Made by a program: the position numbers and the translations under genes. From the IMG/VR virus record IMGVR_UViG_3300024518_001849, positions 1 through 20,279 of that record: 20,279 bases of DNA. One strand, written 5' to 3'. This document shows positions 3,357-14,312 of the stretch, in pieces. The notes under the pieces were generated by a model, which saw only the letters and a program-made list of their open reading frames with translations, made no database searches and had not been told where the DNA came from. The DNA comes from a virus. Numbering within the stretch: the stretch's first letter is position 1; the number at the start of each line of letters is the position of its first letter.

Positions 3357-3394
3357 TCTAAACTTACTTATATTAATGCAAACAAGGTGTGATT

Positions 3395-3601
3395 ATGACT
3401 ACTAGACCGCTAATGACTTTGAATCAAATTAAAATAGGGCTCAAAGATATACGCTTCCATTCCGTAACACAAGCAACCAACTTGAGTTATCCCACATTAC
3501 AAAGGTTAGCTAAAGGTGAAGCTAACAACTATACATTGGAAACTTTGACCAAGATATCCGATTATTTATGGGATAGAAAAGAAGCCGTAGATATTGATTA
3601 A
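3395..3601 (+). CDS. Small helix-turn-helix protein (Cro/XRE-like regulator)
   Basis: A 68-aa protein. The core ATNLSYPTLQRLAKG, then NYTLETLTKISDYL, has the spacing of an XRE/Cro-type DNA-binding helix-turn-helix: a turn at NLSY, a recognition helix PTLQRLAKGE, and a supporting helix LETLTKISDYL. It lacks the C-terminal oligomerisation/peptidase domain of CI-type repressors. The start chosen is ATG at 3395, with AAGG seven bases upstream; an in-frame GTG at 3389 overlaps that site. It lies between the divergent control region and the primase gene (23-base gap), so it probably regulates this switch region and may autoregulate. Confidence 0.7.
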   Translation: MTTRPLMTLNQIKIGLKDIRFHSVTQATNLSYPTLQRLAKGEANNYTLETLTKISDYLWDRKEAVDID

Positions 3602-5958: not shown

Positions 5959-6023
5959 TCAACTACAACCTCCACTACTGTTCGTAAACTATCGTTAATC
6001 CGAACATTAAACAATCAATAGTA

Positions 6024-6155
6024 GTTAATGTTCGAATAACTTTTTTACGAACAGCGTTAACAATTCAAATATCGCAAAAAAACCAACTGTTCGGATTAAA
6101 TCCACATTCCGAACAGGTAATTATCTGTTCGTAAAAAAGTTATTCGAACATTAAC
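6024..6155. repeat. Perfect 31-bp inverted repeat within the array
   Basis: 6024-6054 is the exact reverse complement of 6125-6155; each arm carries one inverted motif pair with a 13-base spacer. A further six bases (TCAATA) match outside, after a 3-base gap. The pair at 6087-6116 (CTGTTCGGA / TCCGAACAG) lies in the loop. 6001-6010 is also complementary to 6025-6034, so alternative cruciforms are possible. Confidence 0.95.
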
Positions 6156-6272
6156 TATTGAAGTTAACGTTTGAAGTGTTCGGAATGTGAAAACACTTCG
6201 AACACTTATTTAACAATTGGTTACGTTAACCTGTCAGTTGTGTGAATTGTCAATATGCAACCGGTAAGTGTT

Positions 6273-6293
6273 TTCTATTGCAAAACAATAGAA
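6273..6293. other. Small hairpin in the array region
   Basis: TTCTATTG, loop CAAAA, CAATAGAA: a perfect 8-bp stem in a stretch otherwise free of the TGTTCG motif. Role unknown. Confidence 0.5.
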
Positions 6294-6390
6294 TTCTATT
6301 TCGAACAGGTTATTATCAGGTAGAATCAATAACTTGAGCTATTGTGTTCGGAATGTTCGGAATAAACGTCACTTTACTGAGATATATAGG

Positions 6391-6407
6391 AATTTTTTTA
6401 TTTTTTT
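6391..6407 (+). other. T7-A-T7 tract, possible DNA unwinding element
   Basis: Two runs of seven T separated by one A (6393-6407), between the direct motif pairs at 6345-6359 and 6440-6454. An easily melted tract flanked by repeated binding sites is what origins commonly contain; here it is inference. Confidence 0.45.
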
Positions 6408-6569
6408 GTAGTACACTGTATCCCGATTTGCAGTTATTCCGAACACTTCGAACAGTTGACTTTGAACTTTTGTTGAACGATAAGGAATTAATAGATTTGG
6501 CGTGTTGTAAAGTTTACTCCACAACTAAACTTTTTGGTGTTATGGAGTAAAATGATATTGAATATGTGA

Positions 6570-6598
6570 TTGACAATGTGTGATATGTATGTTAAATT
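6570..6598 (+). promoter_or_regulatory. Promoter P3
   Basis: TTGACA (6570-6575), 17-base spacer, TAAATT (6593-6598). It shares TTGACAATRTGTGATATGT with P1 of the minus strand. No gene with a ribosome site follows directly, so its product may be a short RNA. Confidence 0.6.
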
Positions 6599-6899: not shown

Positions 6900-6936
6900 G
6901 TGGTAGGTGGCAATCTAGTAAATTGCTGCCTACCAC
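6900..6936 (+). other. Strong 15-bp hairpin
   Basis: GTGGTAGGTGGCAAT (6900-6914) pairs with ATTGCTGCCTACCAC (6922-6936) throughout, using two G-U pairs, with a 7-base loop CTAGTAA. The G-U pairs favour function as plus-strand RNA over the complement. No U-run follows, so it does not look like a terminator. Confidence 0.65.
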
Positions 6937-6939
6937 CTG

Positions 6940-7013
6940 AACACATAACATATTGTAGTTGACACTATGTAACATACGTGTTAATTTAAAGTTAGAGCAA
7001 TATGTTATGTGTT
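6940..7013. repeat. Perfect 16-bp inverted repeat bracketing promoter P4
   Basis: AACACATAACATATTG (6940-6955) is the exact reverse complement of 6998-7013. The 42 bases between contain the whole of P4 (6959-6987). Placement around both sides of a promoter suggests paired protein-binding sites or a cruciform that controls it. Confidence 0.85.
6959..6987 (+). promoter_or_regulatory. Promoter P4
   Basis: TTGACA (6959-6964), 17-base spacer, TAATTT (6982-6987). It is a near copy of P5 (shared TTGACACNATGTAACATA), and the spacer of both holds the small palindrome ATGT-A-ACAT, a possible operator half. Confidence 0.6.
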
Positions 7014-7087: not shown

Positions 7088-7130
7088 AAAAGTGGCACGC
7101 ATATTTTGACACAGAGTGCCACTTTTCTTT
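7088..7130 (+). terminator. Intrinsic terminator upstream of the late promoter
   Basis: AAAAGTGGCAC (7088-7098) and GTGCCACTTTT (7116-7126) form a perfect 11-bp stem with a 17-base loop, continued by CTTT. The A-run on the other side makes it potentially bidirectional. It would insulate the structural operon from upstream transcription and end the P4 transcript. Confidence 0.8.
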
Positions 7131-7157
7131 TGAATAAATCACCCAAACACATCGCAG

Positions 7158-7186
7158 TTGACACCATGTAACATAACTGTTATTTT
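7158..7186 (+). promoter_or_regulatory. Promoter P5, probable promoter of the packaging/structural operon
   Basis: TTGACA (7158-7163), 17-base spacer, TATTTT (7181-7186), about 30 bases before the first packaging gene and just after a terminator. Duplicated version of P4 with the same ATGTAACAT spacer element. Confidence 0.75.
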
Positions 7187-7215
7187 GACATGAGGTTAAC
7201 GATTTTAGGTGGATG

Positions 7216-7521
7216 ATGTACCACACACGAAGAAAAGACGTAAATGAGGCTCGCAGACTGTTAGCTAAGATGCAGGAGCAGGGGGGTGATACCCCACTTT
7301 CGTTCATGTTCAAAGTTTTAAACCATCCAAAACTAGATTACCCGATTAAGTTGGAGGCTGCTGCAAAGTTAGCACCATATCTATACAGTAAACAACCTGT
7401 AGAGTTACAACATACGGGTGAAATACAAGCGTTAGCCTTCTATACCCCCAATAGGCGAGAAATGAAAGTTTGCGATTCCGATTTCATAGACCCTGAGGAC
7501 GTGGATATCGATGACTTATGA
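7216..7521 (+). CDS. terS: Small terminase subunit-like protein
   Basis: A 101-aa protein immediately before the large terminase gene, overlapping it by 11 bases. The central segment (GGDTPLSFMFKVLNHPKLDY, then KLEAAAKLAPYLYSKQPV) matches the helical region seen after the DNA-binding domain in many small terminases, where the subunit recognises packaging DNA and stimulates the large subunit. It is short: no N-terminal helix-turn-helix domain is visible, only a basic stretch (YHTRRKDVNEARRLL). Two ATG codons stand in tandem (7213 and 7216). AGG at 7207-7209 is six bases before the second, which I prefer. The tail is acidic (DPEDVDIDDL). Assignment rests on position plus weak sequence resemblance. 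Confidence 0.65.
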   Translation: MYHTRRKDVNEARRLLAKMQEQGGDTPLSFMFKVLNHPKLDYPIKLEAAAKLAPYLYSKQPVELQHTGEIQALAFYTPNRREMKVCDSDFIDPEDVDIDDL

Positions 7522-12891: not shown

Positions 12892-13347
12892 ATGTCTATT
12901 AATTCACAACGCCCCATTGCTAACGGTGTCGTCAAAGATGTTTTATTAGAGTTAAAAGATTCGGGTTTGGTAGCTGTGTCTGCAGCTGCTCAAGTCGGTG
13001 GTCAGGATAAAATATTAGATTTAGGTTTAGGTAAGTTTAGAGCTGACGTAATTATTGATGCTTCAGCGGTTGAAGTTGACACGGATGATGAACGTTATAC
13101 TATCATCACTCAATTCTCAACTTCAGATACCTTTGCATCCAATATCGTGAATGGTACAACGTTGTACCTAGGTTCTGACGGTGGGGCTTTGGCAAACGCT
13201 GATACGGGTAATGTTGAAGGTAGATATAAACTACCTTTCACAAACATAATTGATGATGTACACTATCAATATATGCGATTGTTTACGATTGTGAGTGGTA
13301 CAATTGCCACAGGTATAGATTATGAAGCTTTTGTAACTATACGATAG
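12892..13347 (+). CDS. Bbp16-like capsid cement (decoration) protein, copy 1
   Basis: A 151-aa, strand-rich protein right after the major capsid gene. The pattern ILDLGLGKFRADVII, ITQFSTSDTFAS, GRYKLPF and HYQYMRLFTIVSGTIATGI follows the Bbp16 family, whose members bind the outside of the capsid as trimers and stabilise it (established for phage BPP-1; assignment here by pattern). ATAAGGAG lies seven bases before ATG 12892. It is paralogous to the next gene: both start MSI(N/I)SQR and share ILDLG/IIDIG, QFS..(D/G)TFAS and DVHY(Q/R)YMR in register. A hairpin follows its stop codon. Confidence 0.75.
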   Translation: MSINSQRPIANGVVKDVLLELKDSGLVAVSAAAQVGGQDKILDLGLGKFRADVIIDASAVEVDTDDERYTIITQFSTSDTFASNIVNGTTLYLGSDGGALANADTGNVEGRYKLPFTNIIDDVHYQYMRLFTIVSGTIATGIDYEAFVTIR

Positions 13348-13355
13348 TTGTTGAA

Positions 13356-13381
13356 AGAGGTGGGGGTAACTCTCCACCTCT
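13356..13381 (+). other. Hairpin between the two cement genes
   Basis: AGAGGTGGGGG and TCTCCACCTCT form an 11-position stem (two G-U pairs) with loop TAAC. No U-run follows and the next ribosome site begins within ten bases, so it may limit readthrough, block RNA decay or slow initiation on copy 2. Confidence 0.6.
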
Positions 13382-13399
13382 ATAATGCGGAGTAAAAAT

Positions 13400-13849
13400 A
13401 TGTCCATAATTTCCCAACGTCTTGTTGCCAATACCAACACTCAAGACGTCACCTTAATACTGAAGGATAGTGGTTTTGTGTTGACTTCTTCACCTGCCCA
13501 AGTTGATGGTCAGGACAGGATAATTGATATCGGTACGGGTAAGGTTGAAGGTGATGTGATTGTAAAGGTTACAGACATTGAAGTTGACTCAGGAAACGAA
13601 TTGTATGGTATCATTTGCCAATTTTCAAATGATGGTACTTTTGCATCGGGGGTAACGTCACCATTAACGCTATTTGCTGGAGTACCGAACCCTATACCGG
13701 GTGACATCACCTTAGGTGTGGGTAATTACACGTTACCTTTTGTAAATGTGTTTGGGGATGTACATTATAGGTATATGCGTCAATATACGTTCATACTTGG
13801 TGCAGTTGTGTCAGGTATCAACTACACTTCTTATATAGTTTATAAATAA
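13400..13849 (+). CDS. Bbp16-like capsid cement (decoration) protein, copy 2
   Basis: A 149-aa protein paralogous to the preceding gene, with the same order of motifs: SIISQRLVAN, VTLILKDSGFVL, RIIDIGTGK, CQFSNDGTFASG, YTLPFVNVFGDVHYRYMRQY and SGINYTSYIVY. The chosen start ATG 13400 has CGGAGT eight bases upstream and aligns with the start of copy 1; an ATG five codons earlier (13385) has no such site. The paralogues have diverged well below identity, so they are probably both functional: two decoration proteins at different capsid positions, or a mixed trimer. Which one is abundant cannot be told from sequence. Confidence 0.75.
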   Translation: MSIISQRLVANTNTQDVTLILKDSGFVLTSSPAQVDGQDRIIDIGTGKVEGDVIVKVTDIEVDSGNELYGIICQFSNDGTFASGVTSPLTLFAGVPNPIPGDITLGVGNYTLPFVNVFGDVHYRYMRQYTFILGAVVSGINYTSYIVYK

Positions 13850-13862
13850 AAGGATTAGAATA

Positions 13863-14312
13863 ATGATAAACGAAGAATATACGAAAGTCGTAAGACTAAA
13901 ATCCAAAGATGAAGAATTGTTCAAGAAAGAGGGTGTGATAATAAGACGACCCATTGACGCTAGGGAGATTTTAGCTTCTGGAGGTTATGAAGTGGTTCCT
14001 AACATTACTAAAGTGGTTGGGGTTGCAAACGTCTTAGATGATAAGGTGGAGTTGATTAAGTCTATGAATACTAAAACTCTAACTTCATTTGTTAAAAATG
14101 AGGGTTTGAACGTGAATATTTCTTCTGGAAATCTAGTTGAAAAGCGGAGTAAAGTTATAGATGCGTTACAAAACCCCCCGGAACAGGAGGTTGAACAGGA
14201 AGTTGAACAGGAAGTTGAACAGGAAGTTGAACAGAAAGTTGAACAGGAAGTTGAACAGGAAGTTGAACAGAAAGTTGAACAGGAAGTTGAACAGGAAGAC
14301 GATGATTTATAG
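13863..14312 (+). CDS. Head-region protein with HeH/SAP-like helices and EVEQ-repeat tail
   Basis: A 149-aa protein. Residues 1-58 are a compact unrecognised domain. Residues about 59-102 (DDKVELIKSMNTKTLTSFVK, then a basic KRSKVIDAL helix) resemble the HeH/SAP-type helix-extended-loop-helix fold seen in small phage head proteins (moderate confidence). The last third is nine tandem tetrapeptides, mostly EVEQ with two KVEQ, then EDDDL. The tail is strongly acidic and helix-prone. It lies between cement and neck genes, as do other small head proteins of unknown role. AAAGGATTAGAATA supplies a ribosome site. Possible nucleic-acid or capsid binding is inference. Confidence 0.65.
   Translation: MINEEYTKVVRLKSKDEELFKKEGVIIRRPIDAREILASGGYEVVPNITKVVGVANVLDDKVELIKSMNTKTLTSFVKNEGLNVNISSGNLVEKRSKVIDALQNPPEQEVEQEVEQEVEQEVEQKVEQEVEQEVEQKVEQEVEQEDDDL
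14187..14294 (+). repeat. Nine tandem 12-bp units (EVEQ codons)
   Basis: The unit GAAGTTGAACAG occurs nine times in register over 108 bases; the first has GAG for GAA, and units 5 and 8 begin AAA, changing Glu to Lys. The pattern 4+1, 2+1, 1 suggests expansion by larger blocks. In-frame copy-number change would not disrupt the gene. Confidence 0.97.

Follow-up and report, generated by a model that had tools for sequence, protein, structure and literature searches.

A two-orientation TGTTCG repeat array downstream of a phage PrimPol-SF3 helicase gene as a very probable iteron-type replication origin

The locus and its repeat array

The window analysed here, a whole stretch of viral DNA of 20,279 nucleotides, contains a primase-helicase gene that is followed by an array of TGTTCG/CGAACA repeats in non-coding DNA and, on the same strand, by the genes for the terminase subunits (Table 1). 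The array begins 21 bp past the primase stop codon. An earlier note made from the sequence had placed it beside a primase-helicase, and Pfam analysis agrees, identifying a PrimPol-PriCT_2-SF3 protein directly 5' of the repeats. With its Prim-Pol, PriCT_2 and SF3/DUF5906 domains and its NrS-1 CTR fold, this protein belongs to the NrS-1-like family of PrimPol helicases; its sequence matches PDB entry 6k9c (E 4e-11), and the NrS-1 CTR is the top match in Foldseek (E 2e-19). AlphaFold predicts a C-terminal winged helix at about residues 684-753, with the order H-E-H-H-E-E and a pLDDT of about 95. A fold search with the C-terminal domain returned generic winged helices only, with Z up to 6, and the P4 alpha domain was absent among the matches listed, which carries no weight against it.

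The array lies about 2.4 kb from the small HTH gene that precedes the primase. The HTH protein, mentioned in the earlier note with 68 aa, is 70 aa long when read from GTG. Several relatives also have a small gene upstream of the primase (L031, L036, L030 and L032, by gene order). Because the primase and terminase small subunit genes are co-directional, the space between them is not a divergent regulatory region.

Table 1. Genes and repeat features at the locus (window coordinates)
Feature	Position	Strand or sites	Remarks
HTH gene, small, Cro/CI type, adjoining the primase gene on its 5' side	3389..3601	+	Pfam HTH_26, E 5e-7
Prim-Pol / PriCT_2 / SF3 (DUF5906) helicase gene, 777 aa	3625..5958	+	Pfam; proposed initiator
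Upstream block of five convergent TGTTCG pairs	5979..6204	5979/6001, 6029/6048, 6088/6110, 6126/6145, 6177/6199	spacers 16, 13, 16, 13, 16
Perfect 33-bp inverted repeat	6022..6157 (arms 6022-6054 / 6125-6157)		70-bp loop; pairs 2 and 4
Lone site	6302..6307	-	position conserved in relatives
Left core tandem pair, TGTTCGGAATGTTCG	6345..6359 (sites 6345/6354)	+	9-bp spacing
AT-rich stretch, 80 bp, 71% AT	6360..6439		holds T7-A-T7; proposed melting region
Right core tandem pair, opposite orientation	6440..6454 (sites 6440/6449)	-	9-bp spacing
Terminase small subunit gene, bordering the intergenic region on the right	7213..7521	+	phrog_641, E 2.5e-5

All fifteen sites reported in the earlier note were recovered as exact matches with the same positions and orientations, as were the alternating inner spacers of the five convergent pairs and the T7-A-T7 tract, which lies at 6393-6407. 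TGTTCG is not dense elsewhere, a condition on which the reading in the earlier note depended: 5979-6454 holds 15 sites in 476 bp (31.5/kb) compared with 4 in the other 19.8 kb (0.20/kb), a difference in density of about 150-fold. The next-densest 6-mer cluster in the window reaches 11 and lies within a coding repeat, and no cluster equals that of TGTTCG. When the 1.25-kb intergenic region was shuffled 1000 times under a Markov model, no G/C-containing 6-mer exceeded 9 copies per 480 bp, against the 15 observed. The conserved unit exceeds six bases and reads TGTTCGnAn(T); all 15 sites have A at position 8, and the core copies are TGTTCGGAA or TGTTCGAAG. Since pairs 2 and 4 form a perfect 33-bp inverted repeat, the 13-bp pair represents one unit present in both orientations. 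Further downstream, the opposed 9-bp tandem pairs flank the AT-rich stretch, as expected of an origin of the SaPI Rep or P4 alpha kind; the AT enrichment of this gap is modest (71% vs 66% for the intergenic region). Two candidate features of the same DNA were discarded. An ORF of 68 aa at 6344-6550, which spans the core, matches no family and was judged spurious, and an Rfam match to mir-5014 falls far under the gathering score and reflects the 33-bp inverted repeat.

Other features were observed along the window. Promoter-like sequences of the form TTGACA-N17-TAAATT/TAATTT/TATTTT lie at 6570-6598, 6959-6987 and 7158-7186, the second and third sharing CACyATGTAACATA; the three may serve, in front of the terminase genes, as late promoters that share an operator. 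The same intergenic region has two strong inverted repeats, GGTAGGTGGCAAT...ATTGCTGCCTACC at 6909-6940 and AAAAGTGGCAC...GTGCCACTTTT at 7092-7135, which are candidate terminator or cos-region structures. Left of the primase, an ISDAFEYSN-repeat protein and an ankyrin-repeat protein (2152-2739 and 1604-2224) adjoin a DUF2800 exonuclease gene, and among the structural genes 13863-14312 encodes a protein that carries a tract of EQEVEQ repeats close to the C terminus.

Repeats downstream of related primases

The relatives comprise named phages, whose primases are 23-27% identical over the alignment and which often share the gene order, together with 80 IMG/VR loci, 7 of them 38-44% identical over most of the protein. 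The array, whose possible absence from relatives the earlier note had raised, is not missing there: in most of them the same place is occupied by a cluster in both orientations, with a different repeat word. In counts that include the window itself, and whose effective numbers are smaller because several loci fall into related groups, a two-orientation cluster score of at least 4 was found after the primase in 35 of 61 non-redundant loci vs 47 of 544 equal-sized control segments (P 3e-18), and the post-primase region was the best segment of its locus in 29/61, with 6.6 expected. Opposed tandem exact 6-mers near the primase stop occur in 20 of 84 loci, a set that was not de-duplicated, vs 2/379 controls and about none in shuffles. 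Around 40% of the relatives show no clear cluster at the post-primase place, and in a few (L033, L056, L074) the cluster sits elsewhere. Five extra named records came from outside the set on which the tests were built. Four of them have candidate two-orientation repeats downstream of the primase, the fifth (L132) has no such repeats there, and the strict opposed test was passed by Silvanus only.

The repeat word differs by lineage, being TGTTCGGAA, GGTCCGAAT (BcepNazgul and others), ATACCGAAT, GTATCCGAA, GGTAACA (L037/L041), ACTGTCAC (AhaSv) or GCCCCGAA; Vibrio phage 1.017.O carries TATCCGAA and PCA1 carries AGGTTCC. After correction for overall relatedness, the iteron word and the winged-helix sequence covary weakly (partial r 0.13, p 0.04). 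The word by itself has no diagnostic value, because two contigs (L006/L007) carry TGTTCGGAA three times near terS without an opposed set. These are short contigs resembling Gram-positive-type prophages, and their copies (L006 530-553, L007 502-525) lie directly 3' of a small gene and 5' of the terminase genes. An exact-match search with the tandem 19-mer returned mostly unrelated phages, and a terminase-based search found relatives without a TGTTCG array.

Spacing rules are shared across the relatives. Tandem copies lie 8-9 or 12 bp apart in the site maps and the pooled histogram, in which convergent copies are mainly 17-23 bp apart and divergent copies concentrate at about 43-47 bp. Two opposed tandem pairs around an AT-rich gap of about 60-110 bp recur among the relatives, and the counterpart of the lone site is a minus-oriented copy 41-50 bp ahead of the tandem pair. 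The window obeys each rule, with 9-bp tandems, convergent pairs at 22 and 19 bp and a distance of 43 bp from 6302 to 6345; the 'lone' site and the two 9-bp pairs fit the relatives' pattern. Expressed as five sites (minus, 40-50, plus, 7-12, plus, 70-125, minus, 7-12, minus), this arrangement was detected at the end of the primase gene in 12 of 60 non-redundant loci, the window being counted here too, vs 2/316 controls and 0 in shuffles. The peculiarity of the window is its five convergent pairs. Relatives have at most two, none with more than two at 17-25 bp being seen in the pooled spacings, and a pattern search for further five-pair arrays found two contigs only (L117 and L118), neither of them a PrimPol-SF3 phage on the DNA seen. 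The suggestion of two kinds of initiator sites, also made in the earlier note, survives in part: there are two arrangements, tandem and convergent pairs, both recurring in relatives, but they are built from a single word.

TGTTCG arrays, opposed or dense, also occur in two phage groups with other helicase types (L005/L022/L023 and L118). In the former, TGTTCG(G/T)AA is present in sets of 2-3 copies opposed around about 100 bp (L005 131-274, L022 11542-11748, L023 3311-3516), and the phage to which L005 belongs (L026) has an AEP primase fused to a DUF927 helicase, plus a DNA polymerase A. In the latter, whose contig ends seem to overlap, a dense array at 13329-13504 coincides with the 3' end of an apparent RepA-like AAA helicase gene on the minus strand; here the same word accompanies a third helicase type.

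Weighing an origin against other functions

We consider it highly likely that the phage replicates from the array and that its own PrimPol-SF3 helicase binds there. A phage origin was the first suggestion of the earlier note, and it is the reading best supported by the position 3' of the helicase gene and by the enrichment and spacing in relatives. GC skew changes sign near 3.2 kb, at a divergent gene boundary and not at the array; because the skew follows gene direction, it is uninformative on the origin.

A different kind of origin has been described for proteins of similar architecture. According to one proposal, AEP-SF3-winged-helix proteins, the one encoded by Bordetella phage BIP-1 among them, use a large stem-loop located 3' of the gene; iterons are said to be absent, and 'not yet identified sequence motifs' are invoked (PMC4234260). 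Applied to the window, the replication protein would recognise an extruded hairpin, formed by the 33-bp inverted repeat or by the near-palindromic core, and not repeated double-stranded sites. The domains of the window protein follow the same order (AEP, helical domain, SF3, winged helix), 19/21 positions of the core arms can pair, and the 33-bp stem with its 70-bp loop, starting 64 bp past the primase stop, comes near the values for pRN1, in which a 21-nt stem with a 58-nt loop lies 54 bp after orf904 (PMC4234260). Nevertheless, we regard this model as unlikely for the window. In 14 of the 19 relatives that have opposed tandem pairs, the spacing differs between the two arms; this interrupts a continuous stem but leaves the sites intact, so that stem pairing is not conserved among them. 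Relatives also commonly have additional sites, in either orientation, that lie outside any stem. Moreover, the pRN1 and BPP-1 stems are themselves 9-bp tandem repeats. The 21-nt stem of pRN1 holds two copies of TGTCCA at a 9-bp interval, which face an identical pair across 64 bp, and in BPP-1, which is near-identical to BIP-1 (PMC4234260), a 22-nt stem 3' of the primase holds TTGCCTC at 9 bp, opposed across 72 bp; both arrangements are absent in shuffles. The BPP-1 element may be the hairpin drawn in that study (PMC4234260). Judged from sequence, this suggests that the experimentally mapped 'stem-loop' origin of pRN1 may equal the opposed-iteron pattern of the phage relatives. Among other plasmids inspected by eye, pHEN7 and pRN2 have partial repeats, and no repeats are visible in pDL10 and pSSVx.

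The array could also be an operator through which a repressor or the initiator regulates transcription of the primase or the late genes, and autoregulation is indeed frequent among initiators, with three TTGACA-N17 promoter-like sequences lying further downstream (6570, 6959, 7158). Yet the sites are behind the primase stop instead of at its promoter, the array is 100 to 1200 bp upstream of the promoter-like sequences, the flanking genes are co-directional, and the position of the array is conserved with the helicase gene, all of which makes this improbable as the main function. The variant put forward in the earlier note, an operator for divergent regulons, is weakened, as no divergent genes flank the array and the iteron position tracks the helicase gene. 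A regulatory side role may exist alongside origin function. It is very unlikely that the array serves packaging as a cosB or pac site to which the terminase small subunit binds, even though terS is the next gene downstream and, in BcepNazgul, about 100 bp separate the end of the repeat region from the annotated cos. It is the primase and not the terminase that the arrays accompany: in L040 the repeats are at the primase end and terS lies about 2.5 kb further, with three opposite-strand genes in between, the next genes in L046 and PCA1 are not terminase genes, and the R22L array is away from any annotated terminase. Plasmid pRN1, which does without packaging, shows the same pattern. Finally, iterons plus an AT-rich region recall theta plasmids and could point to a host-type iteron-plasmid origin with DnaA, but the phage has its own primase-helicase, no DnaA box with at most one mismatch is found in 5979-6454, and the total in the window equals chance, which leaves this reading barely credible.

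Proposed initiation and comparison with known origins

Very probably the array is an iteron origin of the kind known from P4 alpha or SaPI Rep, extended upstream by five convergent pairs in an unusual block. At such an origin the C-terminal winged helix of the 777-aa protein would bind TGTTCGnAA in double-stranded DNA, and two protein assemblies would form on the opposed 9-bp tandem pairs, with the site at 6302 aiding their placement. By analogy with the biochemistry of P4 alpha, SaPI Rep and NrS-1, the 80-bp AT-rich stretch would melt, two SF3 hexamers would load head to head and then move apart, and priming would be done by the same polypeptide as the helicase. The role of the five upstream pairs is the least certain element of this scheme. 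They could be extra docking sites that raise the local initiator concentration or act as a copy-number sink; alternatively, they might fold over the core, as P4 crr does on P4 ori.

On how PrimPol-helicase replication proteins locate their origin, the comparison yields a rule of sequence and spacing that predicts origins in many uncultured and cultured phages and offers a specific re-reading of the pRN1 data. A broader generalisation, possible but in our view somewhat short of probable, is that a single origin code, with fixed spacings and a freely evolving word, serves AEP-SF3-winged-helix replicons as far apart as tailed phages and the archaeal plasmid pRN1; tandem copies would lie at about 9 bp, opposed across about 60-110 bp, with a guard site about 45 bp out. 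If so, the published pRN1 'stem-loop' would be a pair of opposed iterons, the origin could be read from any such genome without experiments, and the window phage would carry the largest version, a crr-like block fused to the core. Combined with a constant spacing frame, winged helices that differ in specificity would also lend themselves to use as orthogonal replicons.

The closest solved structure to the window protein, by sequence and fold, is the NrS-1 polymerase. The NrS-1 account, in the part available to us, describes an 8-nt priming site present twice in the genome and, unlike the case of the window, mentions no iteron array (PMC7102993). pRN1 ORF904 and BPP-1 resemble the window in having an AEP-SF3-winged-helix protein, an origin 3' of its gene and opposed 9-bp tandem pairs; they differ in their single core, which lacks an upstream block and was published as a stem-loop without iterons. 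P4 has type I iterons of the form TGTTCACC and also requires crr, a further repeat region, in cis. P4 alpha combines primase, SF3 helicase and a repeat-binding winged helix in one polypeptide, the primase being of the Toprim type (PMC4234260). The window protein shares this combination, the likeness of the winged helix being one of domain type only, and differs in its primase; ori and crr are apart in P4, whereas the corresponding blocks of the window are adjacent. The SaPI ori consists of oppositely oriented iteron sets around an AT-rich region of about 80 bp, a layout that matches the 9/80/9 core of the window. In the case of SaPI Rep and SCCmec Cch2, the C-terminal domain of the helicase binds iterons that directly follow the helicase gene itself (PMC7581432), and the iterons of the window likewise lie directly downstream of the helicase gene. 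Unlike these systems, the window unites primase and helicase in a single PrimPol-PriCT_2-SF3 protein of the NrS-1 type, uses another iteron word and adds the block of five convergent pairs.
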